This document shows, piece by piece, positions 53,459 through 60,650 of a stretch of DNA of 64,000 nt. A model generated the notes under the pieces. It saw only the letters and a program-made list of their open reading frames with translations. It was not told where the DNA came from and searched no databases. The DNA is from Thermosipho japonicus (lineage in GTDB: Bacteria; Thermotogota; Thermotogae; Thermotogales; Fervidobacteriaceae). Made by a program: the position numbers and the translations under genes. Within the stretch, counting starts at the first letter, position 1. The number at the start of each line of letters is the position of its first letter. The stretch lies in the NCBI RefSeq assembly GCF_014201655.1, contig NZ_JACHEX010000001.1, positions 186,001 through 250,000 of the forward strand. The letters run 5' to 3'.

Positions 53459-54298
53459 TTAAATAATTTCTACTTTTTTTATCTTTGCATTTTCATCTTT
53501 TAGTTTTGCTAAAAAAAGTTCTACATCTTTTTCTTTTGATAACTTCCAATTTCTCTCAATTAATATTTTATATGCTAAGGTATCTATTTTTAAAATAATA
53601 TCTCCTTTTCTTATATTATCCTCCAAAGGAAATTCTTTGTCAAAAATTATAACCATTCCTATATATGATGAAAATCTCATCAGCTTATTTTTCAACAATA
53701 CATAGTCAAAAAAATCCTCATAGACTAAATCAAATTCATATCTTTTTTCTATTTCCTCAACTATCAATTTTACCACGTTATAATCCAACCCCAAATCTAT
53801 CATCTTTTTTAAATACATCATTTCATTTGATACATTTGTTTCACTATAAACCAAGTATTTACCCACTTCAAAAAATGCTTGTCTATAATACATCCTTACT
53901 GATAAAGCCCAATCAGAGGAAACTGATGGTAAAAAATCTCCATTGTATATATCAAATGCTTTTTTTAAAGACTTTGTATCTTTTTTATCCAAAGAAACCA
54001 AAGATAATCTTTCAAAATTTCCAAAATCTGTTTCTATTTTATTAGACATAACAGAAACTATAGAATCTTTAGTATTTAATCTTGCAATATTTTTTAACTT
54101 TTTATTTATTTTAGAAAAAAATACTGTTATATCATTGCGGCATGGCATCTGATCAATCTCCCACACATTTTCTAATATATTTTCAACACTTACATGTTTT
54201 TTGTAAATAACAAAAGCAAGAATTTCTGACTCTTTAGGAGAAAAATGTGTGTTTTTCAACTCTGAAATTAAAAAATCTCCAAATGTAATAACTTTTAT
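53459..54298 (-). CDS. SARP-like transcriptional regulator
   Basis: About 279 residues with an N-terminal winged-helix part (ITFGDFLIS, FSPKESEILAFVIY, ILENVWEIDQ) and a central BTAD-like region, recognised by YNGDFLPSVSSDWALSVRMYY, in which GDFLP and W are typical. This is the layout of SARP/AfsR activators. Its start is uncertain: the upstream TTG at 54316 lies at the predicted transcription start, whereas ATA at 54298 follows AAGGTGAG. The gene is divergent from the secreted-protein/secretin locus and may control it (inference). Confidence 0.72.
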   Translation of the reverse strand: MKVITFGDFLISELKNTHFSPKESEILAFVIYKKHVSVENILENVWEIDQMPCRNDITVFFSKINKKLKNIARLNTKDSIVSVMSNKIETDFGNFERLSLVSLDKKDTKSLKKAFDIYNGDFLPSVSSDWALSVRMYYRQAFFEVGKYLVYSETNVSNEMMYLKKMIDLGLDYNVVKLIVEEIEKRYEFDLVYEDFFDYVLLKNKLMRFSSYIGMVIIFDKEFPLEDNIRKGDIILKIDTLAYKILIERNWKLSKEKDVELFLAKLKDENAKIKKVEII

Positions 54299-54320
54299 GC
54301 TCTCACCTTCTTTCAAGCTA

Positions 54321-54329
54321 ATTATATCA
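54321..54329 (-). promoter_or_regulatory. Extended -10 promoter of the SARP-like gene
   Basis: The minus strand reads TGATATAAT. A start about 7 bases downstream (near 54314) would fall on the TTG codon at 54314-54316, which bears on the choice of start for this gene. Confidence 0.55.
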
Positions 54330-54366
54330 CGTAAATTATATAATTAATTTTATATTGAGTGATAAT

Positions 54367-54396
54367 TTGATTACATCTCAGGTTTTAATTTATATT
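54367..54396 (+). promoter_or_regulatory. Candidate promoter of the secreted-protein/secretin locus
   Basis: TTGATT (54367-54372), an 18-base spacer and TATATT (54391-54396) form a moderate promoter. It would give a leader of roughly 125 bases before the first ATG. The 54317-54528 interval holds this, the SARP promoter and an isolated AAAGGAGG without a start codon. Confidence 0.4.
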
Positions 54397-54501
54397 AATG
54401 TAGTATTATCAATTTACAGAAGAAAAATAAAGACAAAAAAAGTGTTGTTGTTATGTAAATAATTTTTTAAGAAAGGAGGAAAGGTAAGATAATTCTATAA
54501 G

Positions 54502-54992
54502 AACCACAAAAACTAAGGAGGGGAAACTATGAGAAAGATGTTAATTACTTTATTAAGTTTATTTGCTTTATTTATTTTTGCCGATGCAACTTCTGTACAT
54601 GTACCTGGCTGTGATTGGGAAGAATATACTATTGATTCTTCTATTACAATCTATGTCCATCAATGGATGGATCTTGATTATGAATGGTTAATCGCTGATT
54701 TTGATATTTGTGACTATACTCAAACAGGTGATGTTGATGTATTAACTTTCACTCTTGACTCCAATGCTCCTGTTAATGTAATTCCATATGCAGATTACAA
54801 TGGACTTGATGCTTATATAGATGCAGATGTTTATGTCACAAAAGATGGTAACCCATTTGTCCCTACAAATCCTATTGATGATGGACTTTATGTTATAGGT
54901 TTCACCATTAATAGTATCGATCCTGATTTACCTGCTGGCGATTATCCTGTAGTTCTTAGCCTTACTTTTGTCCCTACCGTTTCTTTCTAGAG
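54502..54992 (+). repeat. 491-bp direct repeat, copy 1
   Basis: Identical to 56155-56645 except at one base (T at 54816, C at 56469). It spans the ribosome binding site, the whole coding region and 2 bases after the stop. Offset is 1653 bases. Confidence 0.98.
54529..54990 (+). CDS. Small exported subunit-like protein, copy 1
   Basis: A 153-residue product with a signal peptide ending near residue 20 (FIFADA) and a mature, very acidic beta-rich domain of about 133 residues. Two cysteines, in VPGCDWE and FDICDY, are shared with the third gene of the locus and may form a disulfide. The C-terminal segment PAGDYPVVLSLTFVPTVSF has the G-x-Y final-strand look of fimbrial and spore-coat-U-like subunits. 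No named family recognised. Encoded identically at 56182. Strong AAGGAGGGG site. Confidence 0.8.
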   Translation: MRKMLITLLSLFALFIFADATSVHVPGCDWEEYTIDSSITIYVHQWMDLDYEWLIADFDICDYTQTGDVDVLTFTLDSNAPVNVIPYADYNGLDAYIDADVYVTKDGNPFVPTNPIDDGLYVIGFTINSIDPDLPAGDYPVVLSLTFVPTVSF

Positions 54993-55005
54993 ATAACTAA
55001 AACAT

Positions 55006-55040
55006 ATCCAAGTAGTTTAAACTTTGACTACTTGGATTCT
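55006..55040 (+). terminator. Hairpin between the first two exported-subunit genes
   Basis: ATCCAAGTAGT (55006-55016) pairs perfectly with ACTACTTGGAT (55027-55037) around a 10-base loop. The T run after it is short, so it may be an attenuator that raises the first gene relative to those downstream. Confidence 0.55.
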
Positions 55041-55077
55041 TAAAATGATACTTTCTCCTTAAAAGAAAGGAGTTATC

Positions 55078-55548
55078 ATGAAAATACAAATTCTACTACT
55101 TATTTTTGTTTCATTACTTTCATTTTCAAATAACCATATTATCGGGAAAGTCAACATAAAAGTTCCTCCAGAAATAAATACCGAGATTAAAACTTTCAAA
55201 TATAATCTATGTAATACATATGAAGAAAGCAACTGCCAAAATAGTCTACTTCTAAAAATGACCTATTCATCAAACTACTTAGTATTTTTAGTAATTTCTT
55301 ATCCAAAAACAATAATAGATAATTTTATATTTGTATCAGTTAAATCCTACATCAACAATTTTCAAACAGCAAATTTTTGGTACACAGGTAGCAAATGTTA
55401 TAGTTCAGACAATTACGTTCTTACACCACTTTCAAACAATGGAATAGTCAAATTTCTCTTTAAAAATAGCAAAAAATCTAAAACTATACCCGCTGGAAAG
55501 TATACTATACCAATTGAGTTTAAATTCTATCCAATTGTAAAGTGGTGA
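55078..55548 (+). CDS. Small exported subunit-like protein, divergent paralogue
   Basis: A 156-residue product with a signal peptide (MKIQILLLIFVSLLSFS) and a basic, beta-rich mature domain. The C-terminus, PAGKYTIPIEFKFYPIVKW, matches those of its neighbours, but the N-terminal cysteine motif differs (NLCNTY and SNCQNS, plus SKCYSS). It appears to be a diverged member of the same family, perhaps a tip or adaptor subunit (speculative). AAAGGAG site 6 bases upstream. Confidence 0.75.
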   Translation: MKIQILLLIFVSLLSFSNNHIIGKVNIKVPPEINTEIKTFKYNLCNTYEESNCQNSLLLKMTYSSNYLVFLVISYPKTIIDNFIFVSVKSYINNFQTANFWYTGSKCYSSDNYVLTPLSNNGIVKFLFKNSKKSKTIPAGKYTIPIEFKFYPIVKW

Positions 55549-55574
55549 AATATCAGTGAAAGGAGGAGAATATT

Positions 55575-56156
55575 TTGAAAAAGATCATAATATTTATGTT
55601 AAGTTTGTTAGCAATAAGTTTACTTGCAACTACTCAAGGTAATTTTATCCATGTCTCTGGATGTACTTCTACCAGTACTGAGCTAAGTAATACTATAGAC
55701 GTTAGAGTTTATCAATGGATAGATTTAACATGGGATGCAACTCCTTACCATATCTGTGATAAAGAAACAAATGACCAGTATTTTGATGACGGTTTTGTAC
55801 TTTTGTCTGTTGAATACTTTTCAAATGCAGATGTTCAAGTTTCAGTAGATTTTCCTGATCCACATTTTAGAAATGAATTTTTAGAAATATTAGAAAACAT
55901 ATCAATCTATTTCTTTGTAAAATCGATTGATGCAGTATCTAATCAAGATAGTTATTTTCAATTTAATTATAACATGGGAGATTTAACAAGAATGGGTACA
56001 GACACTACAATACCTGTAAATCTACCACTTGTAAGTCAAGGCTCAATTTTATTCACAGTAAACACTGTAACTTCTGATCCTGGACCATATGAAACACCTG
56101 CTGGTGTCTATCATTTACCAGTAAGATTCACATTTAATCCTACAGTAAGTTGGTAA
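55575..56156 (+). CDS. Small exported subunit-like protein, long paralogue
   Basis: A 193-residue product with a signal peptide ending near residue 18. It shares VSGC, VYQWIDLTW, HICDKE and the C-terminal PAGVYHLPVRFTFNPTVSW with the 153-residue proteins on either side, with an insert of about 40 residues in the middle. It starts at TTG behind AAAGGAGGAG. Its stop lies within the first two bases of the second 491-bp repeat. Confidence 0.78.
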   Translation: MKKIIIFMLSLLAISLLATTQGNFIHVSGCTSTSTELSNTIDVRVYQWIDLTWDATPYHICDKETNDQYFDDGFVLLSVEYFSNADVQVSVDFPDPHFRNEFLEILENISIYFFVKSIDAVSNQDSYFQFNYNMGDLTRMGTDTTIPVNLPLVSQGSILFTVNTVTSDPGPYETPAGVYHLPVRFTFNPTVSW

Positions 56157-56645
56157 CCACAAAAACTAAGGAGGGGAAACTATGAGAAAGATGTTAATTA
56201 CTTTATTAAGTTTATTTGCTTTATTTATTTTTGCCGATGCAACTTCTGTACATGTACCTGGCTGTGATTGGGAAGAATATACTATTGATTCTTCTATTAC
56301 AATCTATGTCCATCAATGGATGGATCTTGATTATGAATGGTTAATCGCTGATTTTGATATTTGTGACTATACTCAAACAGGTGATGTTGATGTATTAACT
56401 TTCACTCTTGACTCCAATGCTCCTGTTAATGTAATTCCATATGCAGATTACAATGGACTTGATGCTTACATAGATGCAGATGTTTATGTCACAAAAGATG
56501 GTAACCCATTTGTCCCTACAAATCCTATTGATGATGGACTTTATGTTATAGGTTTCACCATTAATAGTATCGATCCTGATTTACCTGCTGGCGATTATCC
56601 TGTAGTTCTTAGCCTTACTTTTGTCCCTACCGTTTCTTTCTAGAG
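56155..56645 (+). repeat. 491-bp direct repeat, copy 2
   Basis: Second copy of 54502-54992 with a single silent T-to-C difference at 56469. The left border falls at the stop codon of the preceding gene. Confidence 0.98.
56182..56643 (+). CDS. Small exported subunit-like protein, copy 2
   Basis: Encodes exactly the same 153 residues as the gene at 54529; the only DNA change converts TAT to TAC, both Tyr. The near identity includes the ribosome binding site, so both copies should be translated alike. Two identical genes flanking two diverged paralogues suggest recent duplication or ongoing gene conversion, and high demand for this subunit. Confidence 0.8.
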   Translation: MRKMLITLLSLFALFIFADATSVHVPGCDWEEYTIDSSITIYVHQWMDLDYEWLIADFDICDYTQTGDVDVLTFTLDSNAPVNVIPYADYNGLDAYIDADVYVTKDGNPFVPTNPIDDGLYVIGFTINSIDPDLPAGDYPVVLSLTFVPTVSF

Positions 56646-56665
56646 GCAAATATCACCTAAATGTG

Positions 56666-56699
56666 AAATCCCATATACTTTGAGTATATGGGATTTTTT
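56666..56699 (+). terminator. Terminator after the exported-subunit genes
   Basis: A perfect 14-bp stem, AAATCCCATATACT with AGTATATGGGATTT, has a 3-base loop and ends in a T run. It separates the subunit genes from the chaperone-like and secretin genes. Confidence 0.88.
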
Positions 56700-56784
56700 G
56701 AACTTAATTTTGATTTAGAATTAACCGTGAAATTGATATAATTAATATATGATATATTCAAATAAAAACATAGGGGGCATTCAA

Positions 56785-58203
56785 ATGAAAAAAACACTTT
56801 TTACCATTTTAATCCTATTTGCTTTATTTTCTTCAATTGACTTTGCTGTAACTATTTATCCCTTAGTAAACAGGTTAAATGTTGAAGCAAATCAAAAAAC
56901 AATAGAGCTCACAATTAATGTTGCAAACAATAGTCCTAGTATAGCAGACGTTGACGTCGAAATATCAGATTTTGTAATAGAAGGCTCCAAATATCTCTAT
57001 GACATCCCAAATTATGCATTTAGTATTAAAGATTGGATTACAATTGAAAGCACACATTTAATTTTACAACCCGGTCAATCAATTGACTATCCAATAAAGA
57101 TAAATATTCCTTCAGGTTTTAAAGGAGCACAAGCATTTGGCGCAATACATTTTAAACAAAAGGGAAAGCAATCGGAAGTTTTTGAAACAATTTTTGACTA
57201 CATTTCACTTATAATATTAGATTTTCCAACTGTTAAAAATATCAAAGCACAAATTCAAGATGTGTCAATATACGATCTAACTACAACTGCTTCAAAAACT
57301 CTTATTGACAAGTATGGCAACTTTGGAACAGTTATTGATATCAATGTAAAAAATAATGGTAACGCAGTGTTAGCTCTTAATGGGGAAATGAGGCTTATCT
57401 CCAGAGAGATTAACAGAATCATCACTTCCATACCATTAAATAGTAATAATTTTGTTGTCTTTCCAGATAGGGCTAATAATTTTGAATTTTTTATTCCATA
57501 TGTATTGCCGAAAGGAGATTTTGAAATACAAATGGATGGTATATCTCAAAATGTACGTGTTACAGCTTTTAAAAAGCTAAAAATCGAAGGAAAATCTTCT
57601 GATAGAGTTGCAGTAATGATTGATCCTGAAATAATTTTAATAAATGTAAAAAGAACAATTGAAAATTTAAAAATAACAATTCAAAATCTTTCGCCTTTAT
57701 CAACTGAATTTGGTCTTTCTACAATTTCGAAAGCTTTAAATATATTACCTGGTAAAATTAGATTATCTCCTTATTCAAAAATAAACGGTTTTGTAAAATT
57801 TGATAGTAGACTTGAAAAACTTAAAGATGGTGATAATGTTTTTAAAATTAATATCGATAGTGAAAATGAAATTAGCCTTTTTAAAAATCCAAAAATAGTC
57901 TTAAGATATGGTAACTTAGAACCAAATATAGACTCATTAATTACAGATGTTTCAACAAATACGTTTGCTTTAAATGTAAAAAATACGGGAAATACAATAG
58001 TAACTTTTAAGGTCATAAGAACTGAAAAACTTCAATCAAATGATTTAACCAATGAAATTATACTATTTCCAGGTGAAATTAAAAAAGTTTTTCTTGAAAT
58101 ACCTTACAATGAAATCATCAAGAACAGTACTTTTATAATGTACAAAATTTATGGAGAAACTGATTATAAATATAAAAAAAATATAGGAGATGTTAGAAAA
58201 TGA
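56785..58203 (+). CDS. Periplasmic PapD/DUF916-like Ig-domain protein
   Basis: About 472 residues: signal peptide (KKTLFTILILFALFSS), then several Ig-like domains. The first (about 20-125) has the pattern of fimbrial chaperones and DUF916 proteins: IYPLVNRLNVEA, IELTINVANNSP, a tryptophan followed by LILQPGQSIDYPIKINIPSG, and GAIHFKQ. There is no membrane anchor at the C-terminus. A role in holding or capping the small subunits is inferred from fold and position. The ATG at 56785 has GGGGG upstream; the ORF extends to 56749. It overlaps the secretin gene by 4 bases. Confidence 0.65.
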   Translation: MKKTLFTILILFALFSSIDFAVTIYPLVNRLNVEANQKTIELTINVANNSPSIADVDVEISDFVIEGSKYLYDIPNYAFSIKDWITIESTHLILQPGQSIDYPIKINIPSGFKGAQAFGAIHFKQKGKQSEVFETIFDYISLIILDFPTVKNIKAQIQDVSIYDLTTTASKTLIDKYGNFGTVIDINVKNNGNAVLALNGEMRLISREINRIITSIPLNSNNFVVFPDRANNFEFFIPYVLPKGDFEIQMDGISQNVRVTAFKKLKIEGKSSDRVAVMIDPEIILINVKRTIENLKITIQNLSPLSTEFGLSTISKALNILPGKIRLSPYSKINGFVKFDSRLEKLKDGDNVFKINIDSENEISLFKNPKIVLRYGNLEPNIDSLITDVSTNTFALNVKNTGNTIVTFKVIRTEKLQSNDLTNEIILFPGEIKKVFLEIPYNEIIKNSTFIMYKIYGETDYKYKKNIGDVRK

Positions 58204-59306
58204 AAAAATATTTAGCAATCTTAATAATATCGTTAATTACATTAGCTTTTTCTGTTGATATCTATTTTTATCAAACAGATATAAGAGATGCTTTAAATCA
58301 ACTGGGAATGCAAGAAGGCGTTTCCATAATATATGATCCTTTAATATCTGGTTTCATAAGTGTTGAAGCTTACAATATAACTTTAGAAAAAGCTCTTGAT
58401 TTAATGTTATTACCTCTTGGATATTACTGGACCAAAATAGACAATGTATATTTTGTTGGTACTGCAAATCCTGATAGTCCTAATTTTGCACTAATTTCAA
58501 AAAAATATCTTTTAAATCTAAGATTTATAACCTTTGATGACCTCTACAATGCTTTACCAAAGGTAATGACAAATTATATATACAAAACACCCAATAAAAA
58601 TCAAGTCCTCATATATGCCCCTGCAAAAATAGCATCCCAAATTGCTGAAACAATAACTCTAATAGACAAACAAATACCTGTTGCAGAAATCCAAGTTAAA
58701 ATAATAGAAATAGATGAATCCGATTTTATAAAATTTGGTATATCTTGGAATAACGAAGAAAACAATATCACATCTTACAATAATGGCAATTTACAATTAT
58801 CTTTAAATCCTTTAAATGTAAACTTTAATATTATAATGGATACTTTGATAAGTTCTGGTAATGCAAAGGTTCTAGCAGAAGGAACACTAAAATTAAAATC
58901 AAATTCTACGGCACAAATTACAGGATATACAACTGTTGGTTTTACTCTTGGCAAAGATAACACTTATGTTGAAAAAAAGATCAACACTCAAATCATTATT
59001 TCTGGATATGTTTTTGCAGATCATGCAAATCTCACACTTAAATCCGTTGTGGAATCATTTATACAAAATTCTTCAACATTTACACCAGTTGGTGCCTCAG
59101 TTGAAACAAATTTAGATATAAAATACGAACAACCTTATTATATAGCTGGGCTATCTTTTGACTCAGTTACAAAACAAGATGGCGGAATCCCAGGTTTAAA
59201 AGATATTCCCATAATTGGTAATCTTTTTAAAAATAGTACATATACATCAAGAAAGAAAAATATAGTAATATTCATAAAAGCAAGATTGGCAGGTGAAAAT
59301 CTATGA
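58200..59306 (+). CDS. Short secretin-family protein
   Basis: A 368-residue exported protein. After the signal peptide comes an STN/N0-like domain (about 20-80, DIRDALNQLGMQEGVSIIYD), an N1-like domain (about 95-150, KNQVLIYAPAKIASQIAETI) and a C-terminal secretin core (about 155-365) that opens with AEIQVKIIEIDESD. The signature GGIPGLKDIPIIGNLFKN near 330-347 is that of GspD/PilQ outer-membrane gates. It is much shorter than GspD. It lies between the chaperone-like gene and a second secretin-like gene, overlapping both by 4 bases. Confidence 0.85.
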   Translation: MKKYLAILIISLITLAFSVDIYFYQTDIRDALNQLGMQEGVSIIYDPLISGFISVEAYNITLEKALDLMLLPLGYYWTKIDNVYFVGTANPDSPNFALISKKYLLNLRFITFDDLYNALPKVMTNYIYKTPNKNQVLIYAPAKIASQIAETITLIDKQIPVAEIQVKIIEIDESDFIKFGISWNNEENNITSYNNGNLQLSLNPLNVNFNIIMDTLISSGNAKVLAEGTLKLKSNSTAQITGYTTVGFTLGKDNTYVEKKINTQIIISGYVFADHANLTLKSVVESFIQNSSTFTPVGASVETNLDIKYEQPYYIAGLSFDSVTKQDGGIPGLKDIPIIGNLFKNSTYTSRKKNIVIFIKARLAGENL

Positions 59307-60619
59307 AAAAAATAATAATTGTTATATTAGCATTGTTCTTAACAATTTATGCTTTTTCAATAACTAAGAATGTTTATTTTGAAAATATGGATATAAAAGA
59401 TGCACTCATACAATTAGGAACCCTATATAATACATCAATAATTTTTCCTGAAAACTTGAATGGAAAAGTTACGGTAGAACTCTACAATGTTTCAATTGAA
59501 ACAGCATTAAATGTTATACTCTCAAATTTTAATTATACATTTGAAAAAATTAATGATGTCTATTTTATAATAACTGATCAATCGATACTATATTATAAAT
59601 CACATACATACACTCCAAAATTTAGATCTCCAGAAGAATTATCAAAACTAATTCCATTTAAAAACTATATTGTCGGAAACAACATCATTGTTTATTGCCC
59701 TGATGATTTGTGGAATAATTACAAAAACTTTTTAGAAAATATCGACAAAGGTGCGAAAAATAATACTATTATTTCTTATGCTATTTACTACATTAAAAAC
59801 TCAGAGTTAAAAAATTACAATATAGATACTAAAAAACTATTAGAAGCTCTTCCATATACAAGTAAATTTAATTACATATTGAATACATTTGGATTTTTTA
59901 CAGGAAATGATCCAAAAGTATTTGTTAATGGTTCAATAAAATTAAATGCAAGTGTTAATAATTCAGAAATAATTTTTGAAATTTCAACCGAAAATGATTC
60001 AGCAAGCACAAAATTTCCTGCTAATGAGGGAGAAATTAGAAAAATTTTAGAGGGAAAATTTGGAAAATTTATTGTTATAACAAATATCAAAAAGATAAAT
60101 TATGAATCTAGTGGTTATAAAATAGAAAAATTAAAACTCCCCCTTAAAAATTCCTTTAATTTAACATATTTCTCTAACCAAAACCTTTTAATGTCTATTT
60201 CAACTGAAAATTTATCAATGTTCTTTGAAAAAAACGCTTCTTCTTACTTAGGTGCAAAATTTAATCCTATTAACGATTTTTGGATAGGAGGAAAAATAAA
60301 TATTCAAAAAGCAACTGAAACAAATATCTTTTTTGAAGATAAATTTTCAATAAATCCACTTTATATAGAATTTAATATCGATAAACCGTTAAATCTAGAA
60401 AAAATGGAGTTGAATAATATTCTTTCAAATTTATACATGAAAATAGGAATTGGATTAAAGTATTACATTGACGAGAATGTATTCATAGATATATCAGCAT
60501 TTTATGATTCACTAGAAATTATTTCTGGAAGATTAAAACTTTTCCACAATAATTTTGGAGCTGTACTTTATATTGATCAAAATCTAAATTATGGTGGAGG
60601 TATATATATTAATTGGTAA
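59303..60619 (+). CDS. Secretin-like N-domain protein with barrel-like C-terminus
   Basis: A 438-residue exported protein. The N-terminal STN-like domain (about 20-75, DIKDALIQLGTLYNTSIIFP) and an N1-like segment (about 105-150) parallel the preceding secretin. The middle (about 150-270) may be a degenerate secretin region; the IPxxGxLF-type signature is absent. The last 150 residues alternate polar and aromatic residues and end in GGGIYINW, like an outer-membrane barrel with an aromatic last residue. This could be a partner or anchor of the short secretin. No family recognised for the whole. Confidence 0.65.
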   Translation: MKKIIIVILALFLTIYAFSITKNVYFENMDIKDALIQLGTLYNTSIIFPENLNGKVTVELYNVSIETALNVILSNFNYTFEKINDVYFIITDQSILYYKSHTYTPKFRSPEELSKLIPFKNYIVGNNIIVYCPDDLWNNYKNFLENIDKGAKNNTIISYAIYYIKNSELKNYNIDTKKLLEALPYTSKFNYILNTFGFFTGNDPKVFVNGSIKLNASVNNSEIIFEISTENDSASTKFPANEGEIRKILEGKFGKFIVITNIKKINYESSGYKIEKLKLPLKNSFNLTYFSNQNLLMSISTENLSMFFEKNASSYLGAKFNPINDFWIGGKINIQKATETNIFFEDKFSINPLYIEFNIDKPLNLEKMELNNILSNLYMKIGIGLKYYIDENVFIDISAFYDSLEIISGRLKLFHNNFGAVLYIDQNLNYGGGIYINW

Positions 60620-60624
60620 AACAA

Positions 60625-60650
60625 ATCCCCCAGCTAATTAGCTGGGGGAT
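60625..60650 (+). terminator. Bidirectional terminator between the secretin locus and desulfoferrodoxin
   Basis: A 26-base perfect palindrome, ATCCCCCAGCTAA followed by TTAGCTGGGGGAT, lies between convergent genes. T runs are modest on both sides (TTTC on plus, TTTGTTTT on minus). Confidence 0.82.

Follow-up and report, generated by a model that had tools for sequence, protein, structure and literature searches.

A candidate chaperone-assisted, secretin-gated locus for pilin-like β-sandwich subunits in Thermosipho japonicus

What might four small exported paralogues be doing beside a multi-Ig periplasmic protein, a short secretin and a barrel-ended relative of that secretin in a bacterium of the phylum Thermotogota? 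The genes lie together in the window analysed here, a stretch of 64,000 nucleotides of the Thermosipho japonicus genome (contig NZ_JACHEX010000001.1, positions 186,001 to 250,000), and a preliminary description made from the letters of that window had recognised no described system in them. Our proposal for these genes is a chaperone-assisted, secretin-gated system by which pilin-like β-sandwich subunits reach the outer sheath (toga), a reading that we hold to be reasonably probable. Its central elements, namely the interaction, the transit through the secretin, the strand exchange and the surface location of the subunits, are ones that we infer.

The features of the locus are collected in Table 1. 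All four of the small exported paralogues that had been described by their PAG-x-Y-x(6)-F-x-P-x-V-x-[WF] end are present, with Sec-type signal sequences, and the terminator placed after them was borne out: none of 200 shuffled sequences folded as well as the hairpin, which was not among the calls of a simple terminator scan. The coordinates also agree with the reported overlap of the last three genes, by 4 bp both between the chaperone-like and secretin genes and between the secretin gene and the third gene; an in-frame ATG is found upstream of the chaperone-like gene start, at 56749. The outer two subunit genes differ by a single silent nucleotide in 462 and have a 27-nucleotide leader in common, and this identity points to duplication or gene conversion in the very recent past. 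The locus is not a chance assembly: the gene set is met again throughout the phylum, and purifying selection acts on it, with a dN/dS of 0.11–0.16 between the locus and its closest relative.

Table 1. Features of the locus, with positions counted from the first nucleotide of the window
Feature	Coordinates	Strand	Basis
Divergent transcriptional regulator, OmpR/SARP-type N-terminal DNA-binding domain	53459..54316	-	Trans_reg_C 1.7e-4
Subunit sub1, Sec signal and pilin-like β-sandwich; VHQW, DSN and PAGxY motifs	54529..54990	+	Alignment, AF2, Foldseek
Subunit paralogue sub2, divergent; PAGxY...FxPxVxW kept, QW motif absent	55078..55548	+	hhalign to sub3 group 2e-9
Subunit paralogue sub3, longer; VYQW, SN and PAGxY motifs	55575..56156	+	hhalign of sub1 and sub3 groups 4e-20
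Second sub1 copy, same protein	56182..56643	+	Nucleotide comparison (461/462 nt and 27-nt leader identical)
Intrinsic-terminator-like hairpin between subunit genes and machinery genes	56667..56695	+	Fold -18.9 kcal/mol, z -5.1
DUF916/WxLIP-like periplasmic multi-Ig protein, proposed chaperone	56785..58203	+	Profile to EfmWxLIP1 3e-7
Minimal secretin: signal, STN/N0, N1-like, full secretin core	58200..59306	+	Secretin 3.2e-17, STN 3.6e-10
Secretin-derived N0-N1 protein with predicted 12-strand C-terminal β-barrel, final W	59303..60619	+	hhalign, AF2, Foldseek
Bidirectional terminator-like hairpin, end of locus	60625..60650		Terminator scan

Three motifs stand out in an alignment of 16 subunits: V-H-Q-W, which lies in a strand, D-S-N, and PAG-x-Y at the end. 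The QW...SN region is also found in small proteins of the Fervidobacterium and Thermotoga types (hhalign scores of 35.7 and 33.2; the best shuffled-column scores were 15.0 and 19.2, respectively); mature regions with column-shuffle controls were used here instead of iterated HMMs on unmasked small proteins, which drift on signal peptides. None of 243 background non-exported ORFs contains the QW motif, and exported proteins with the motif adjoin the chaperone gene in most loci that have enough flanking sequence. Searches of the small proteins against Pfam and NCBIfam gave no credible match, and the subunit profile found nothing by sequence in the PDB. The cysteines after VPG and in ICD co-occur or are jointly absent in most of the aligned subunits, a pairing that suggests a disulfide tethering the N-terminal segment of the subunit.

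The structure predicted for sub1 agrees with the idea that the small proteins are subunit-like sandwiches. The AlphaFold2 model of sub1 is a β-sandwich of six strands (pLDDT 87.5), and its N-terminal 26 residues lie outside the strands in the monomer. The top 50 Foldseek matches are mostly subunits of donor-strand fibres: CanA cannulae, CfaB (CFA/I), FimI/FimA (type 1) and Caf1, together with PapE, CsuE, PsaA, the Saci_0406 threads and TLP-1b. Each match is marginal when taken individually (best E 2.1e-3, none ≤ 0.001, TM below 0.5); it is their agreement with one another that argues for the likeness to fibre subunits.

The protein encoded immediately before the secretin had been called PapD/DUF916-like, of which we favour the second half and reject the first. 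PapD_N (PF00345) is absent from all 103 Thermotogota genomes searched (the E. coli control was positive), on which ground PapD homology of the 56785 product is rejected. This product taken alone matches DUF916 weakly (0.037, below the cut-off), WxLIP_PGBD is found in 8/21 members of its family (best 1.1e-7), and a profile of the family finds EfmWxLIP1 as the closest solved relative in the PDB. The hydropathy of the 56785 product peaks at 1.41 after residue 45, giving no C-terminal transmembrane helix, and the peak lies below 1.6 in most relatives (slightly or clearly above in four), as expected for a soluble periplasmic chaperone. A plasmid tblastn search with the chaperone gave no match. WxLIP itself has been predicted to complete the sandwich of WxL with a strand (PMC10599100).

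As WxLIP is believed to remain attached to WxL, and as each locus encodes several different subunits, the same relationship could also be read as a non-polymerising surface or periplasmic coat, in which the DUF916-like protein stays bound as in the Gram-positive WxL–WxLIP pairs and the secretin only releases the complex or other cargo. However, the 56785 product and most of its relatives lack the C-terminal transmembrane helix of WxLIP, the WxL domain (PF13731) is absent from the 103 Thermotogota genomes (the Lactococcus control was positive) and the subunit model resembles fibre subunits. We consider such a coat unlikely.

The chaperone-like protein was found by profile search in 60 of the 103 Thermotogota genomes. 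Its gene lies directly upstream of, and on the same strand as, 60 of 69 short secretins (52/103 genomes), several of the unpaired secretins being at contig ends, and so the gene set proved to be conserved together across the phylum. The trees of the chaperone, the secretin and the third gene are correlated (r 0.92–0.94, permutation p 0.0005). Four clades can be distinguished in which the subunits and the third gene differ and the order chaperone–secretin–third gene is kept. A contig search with the secretin returned one match, in a Thermosipho MAG already represented among the whole genomes. One genome of the same genus (G078) has no match to the chaperone-like protein, so the system is dispensable. 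Another carries a decayed second copy of the locus (L064, G080:C1:893000-908000) with a 96-aa chaperone remnant and short regulator ORFs. Two members of the genus encode, next to the second type of locus, a lipoprotein-like protein of 557–560 aa (L033:11093-12775 and L064:5194-6867), possibly an accessory surface protein.

The regulator had been described as SARP-type and divergently encoded, which fits what we find: its own OmpR/SARP-type DNA-binding match is weak, BTAD is clearly recognised in a relative from Thermotoga, and regulators related to it stand beside many of the other copies of the locus. The type of regulator varies by clade, with SARP/OmpR proteins in some and σ54 activators adjoining others; in one clade σ54 activators take the place of SARP-type regulators (L048:13387-14748 and L058:10875-12380).

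The subunits vary strongly between clades, and a survey that found no known secretion system in Thermotogae suggested that there may be toga-specific ones (PMC4793230); both points would suit a toga-adapted two-step secretion of soluble proteins, with the small sandwiches serving as periplasmic plugs, adaptors or tip factors instead of being the product. Against this, no conserved enzyme-like cargo is seen beside the loci, where it is the sandwiches that are conserved and often duplicated, and we find the idea improbable.

The 58200 product (368 aa) is complete and has the real secretin core that had been ascribed to it: it matches Pfam Secretin (PF00263) over model positions 2–167 of 169, has an STN domain and a weak N1-like match, and shows no S-domain. 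Its solved relatives include GspD (PDB match 3e-11) and PilQ. The third protein had been described as secretin-like with a barrel-like end, and here the N0–N1 part and a predicted 12-strand barrel are upheld but a second secretin pore is not, as the core is missing: Pfam finds STN (1.1e-7) and no Secretin match. Its group has only the N0–N1 part in common with its own secretin group (hhalign 1e-23), and no N0–N1 was detected by hhalign in the third proteins of clade T. In the model (pLDDT 81, pTM 0.45) the two N-domains precede a C-terminal meander of 12 strands with tryptophan at its end; Foldseek matches the first part to the N-domains of GspD/XcpQ/EscC and the second to porins or designed barrels. 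A barrel of 12 strands is too narrow for a folded sandwich (ushers have 24), so the secretin is the likely exit.

No ATPase is encoded among the ORFs of the locus, as had been noted; T2SSE-type ATPases are found elsewhere in the genome, as is a separate long secretin of the PilQ/GspD type (1322-aa frame). Most Thermotoga genomes in the sample likewise have one short and one long secretin. Both secretins of T. maritima, TM1117 and TM0088, are listed as pilQ (PMC5637354); given this pattern, TM1117 is probably the short secretin of the present system and its pilQ label is likely to be a misassignment. That the short secretin is an extra type IV pilus or type II secretion part, an additional PilQ/GspD that serves in DNA uptake or secretion, is very improbable: its core matches GspD/PilQ models and the T. 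maritima annotation is in keeping with them, but the locus has no pilin, cognate ATPase or platform gene among its ORFs, the long secretin and the T2SSE ATPases lie elsewhere, the conserved partner is a DUF916-like protein and the subunits have ordinary Sec signals with no prepilin-type leader noted.

The absence of a recognisable described system also held: the locus falls outside the chaperone–usher, WxL and T2SS/T4P systems on the defining tests of each, and resembles the first of these in logic. Like chaperone–usher pili (PapD/FimC–FimD, Caf1M–Caf1A, CFA/I, Csu), it has small Sec-exported subunits (sandwiches by prediction), a dedicated periplasmic Ig-like protein, no ATPase and a candidate outer-membrane exit in the same cluster. 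In contrast to them, its proposed chaperone is DUF916/WxLIP-like and not of the PapD family, no usher (PF00577) match above the cut-off was found in the 103 Thermotogota genomes (E. coli control positive), and the exit would be a secretin with an N0–N1 barrel protein. The WxL–WxLIP (DUF916–DUF3324) clusters of Firmicutes also place small exported proteins beside a DUF916-like protein, with strand complementation proposed there (PMC10599100) as it is here, whereas the present locus has no WxL domain, most of its DUF916-like proteins have no C-terminal transmembrane helix, a secretin and a barrel protein of the outer membrane are added and the hosts are diderm. The secretins of T2SS, T3SS, T4P and filamentous phage (pIV) are homologous to ours in N0 and core; here, however, the secretin is minimal, its conserved partner is DUF916-like and there is no inner-membrane platform or ATPase. 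CanA, Saci_0406 and TLP-1b are among the nearest folds to the subunit model, and we know of no chaperone–secretin cluster for donor-strand threads, cannulae or TasA-like fibres (Saci_0406, CanA, TasA). No earlier description of the system was found in the literature searched, for the most part outside subscription journals. Most probably, the locus specifies a chaperone–secretin route, so far undescribed, for pilin-like subunits.

In the route that we propose, the subunits would reach the periplasm by Sec, for which the signal sequences are seen. The DUF916/WxLIP-like protein would bind them there and complete the open sandwich with a strand, as suggested by its WxLIP relative and by the pilin-like subunit model. 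The subunits would then exit via the dedicated minimal secretin ring, presumably the one pore encoded here with room for a subunit that is already folded or in part assembled, and the third protein, a secretin-derived N0–N1 piece on a 12-strand barrel, may dock to or anchor this ring. Strand exchange through the free N-terminal segment would drive polymerisation into a fibre or coat, so that no ATPase would be needed.

We prefer this chaperone–secretin reading because the set is co-conserved with correlated trees and QW proteins adjoin the chaperone gene; because the subunit fold is nearest to donor-strand fibres and its first 26 residues are strand-free; because the chaperone is nearest to WxLIP and mostly without a transmembrane helix, with PapD and usher absent or below the cut-off; and because the long secretin and T2SSE ATPases are elsewhere and the third gene combines N0–N1 with a barrel. 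Counted against it are the Foldseek E values of sub1 (at least 2e-3), the missing QW motif of sub2, the clade-T third proteins without detectable N0–N1 and the missing chaperone of G078; furthermore, to our knowledge no secretin works without an inner-membrane partner. More tentatively, the locus may represent a new ATPase-free outer-membrane assembly system of donor-strand subunits and a WxLIP-type chaperone, in which a secretin ring and its N0–N1 barrel partner replace the usher, and which would be the main dedicated surface-export route of Thermotogota.

Outside Thermotogota, the secretin-linked set was found in two small phyla: in one locus (L082) the secretin is accompanied by subunits, chaperone and an STN protein of 600 aa, and in the other (L084) by the chaperone. 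Additional relatives of the chaperone were found as well. Many other phyla have two-domain chaperone relatives beside small exported proteins, often with an exported protein of 770–1010 aa. In L086, L087, L088, L091, L094 and L097 chaperone relatives of ∼270–400 aa stand beside such a large protein, which has an SdrD_B-like C-terminus; in L092 it is accompanied by small exported proteins alone. Pfam and the PDB give only SdrD_B-type C-termini for these large proteins, which are candidates, as yet unproven, for an usher-like exit.

Thermotogae have been described as the only diderm clade with none of the surveyed secretion systems, and toga-specific ones may exist (PMC4793230). The locus is a concrete and testable candidate for such a system, and half of the Thermotogota genomes sampled carry it. 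If the proposal is true, a secretin can work with no inner-membrane motor on folded subunits that a chaperone delivers, the WxLIP of Gram-positive bacteria would be linked to a chaperone role in diderms, and the Thermotoga gene listed as pilQ would merit reassignment.
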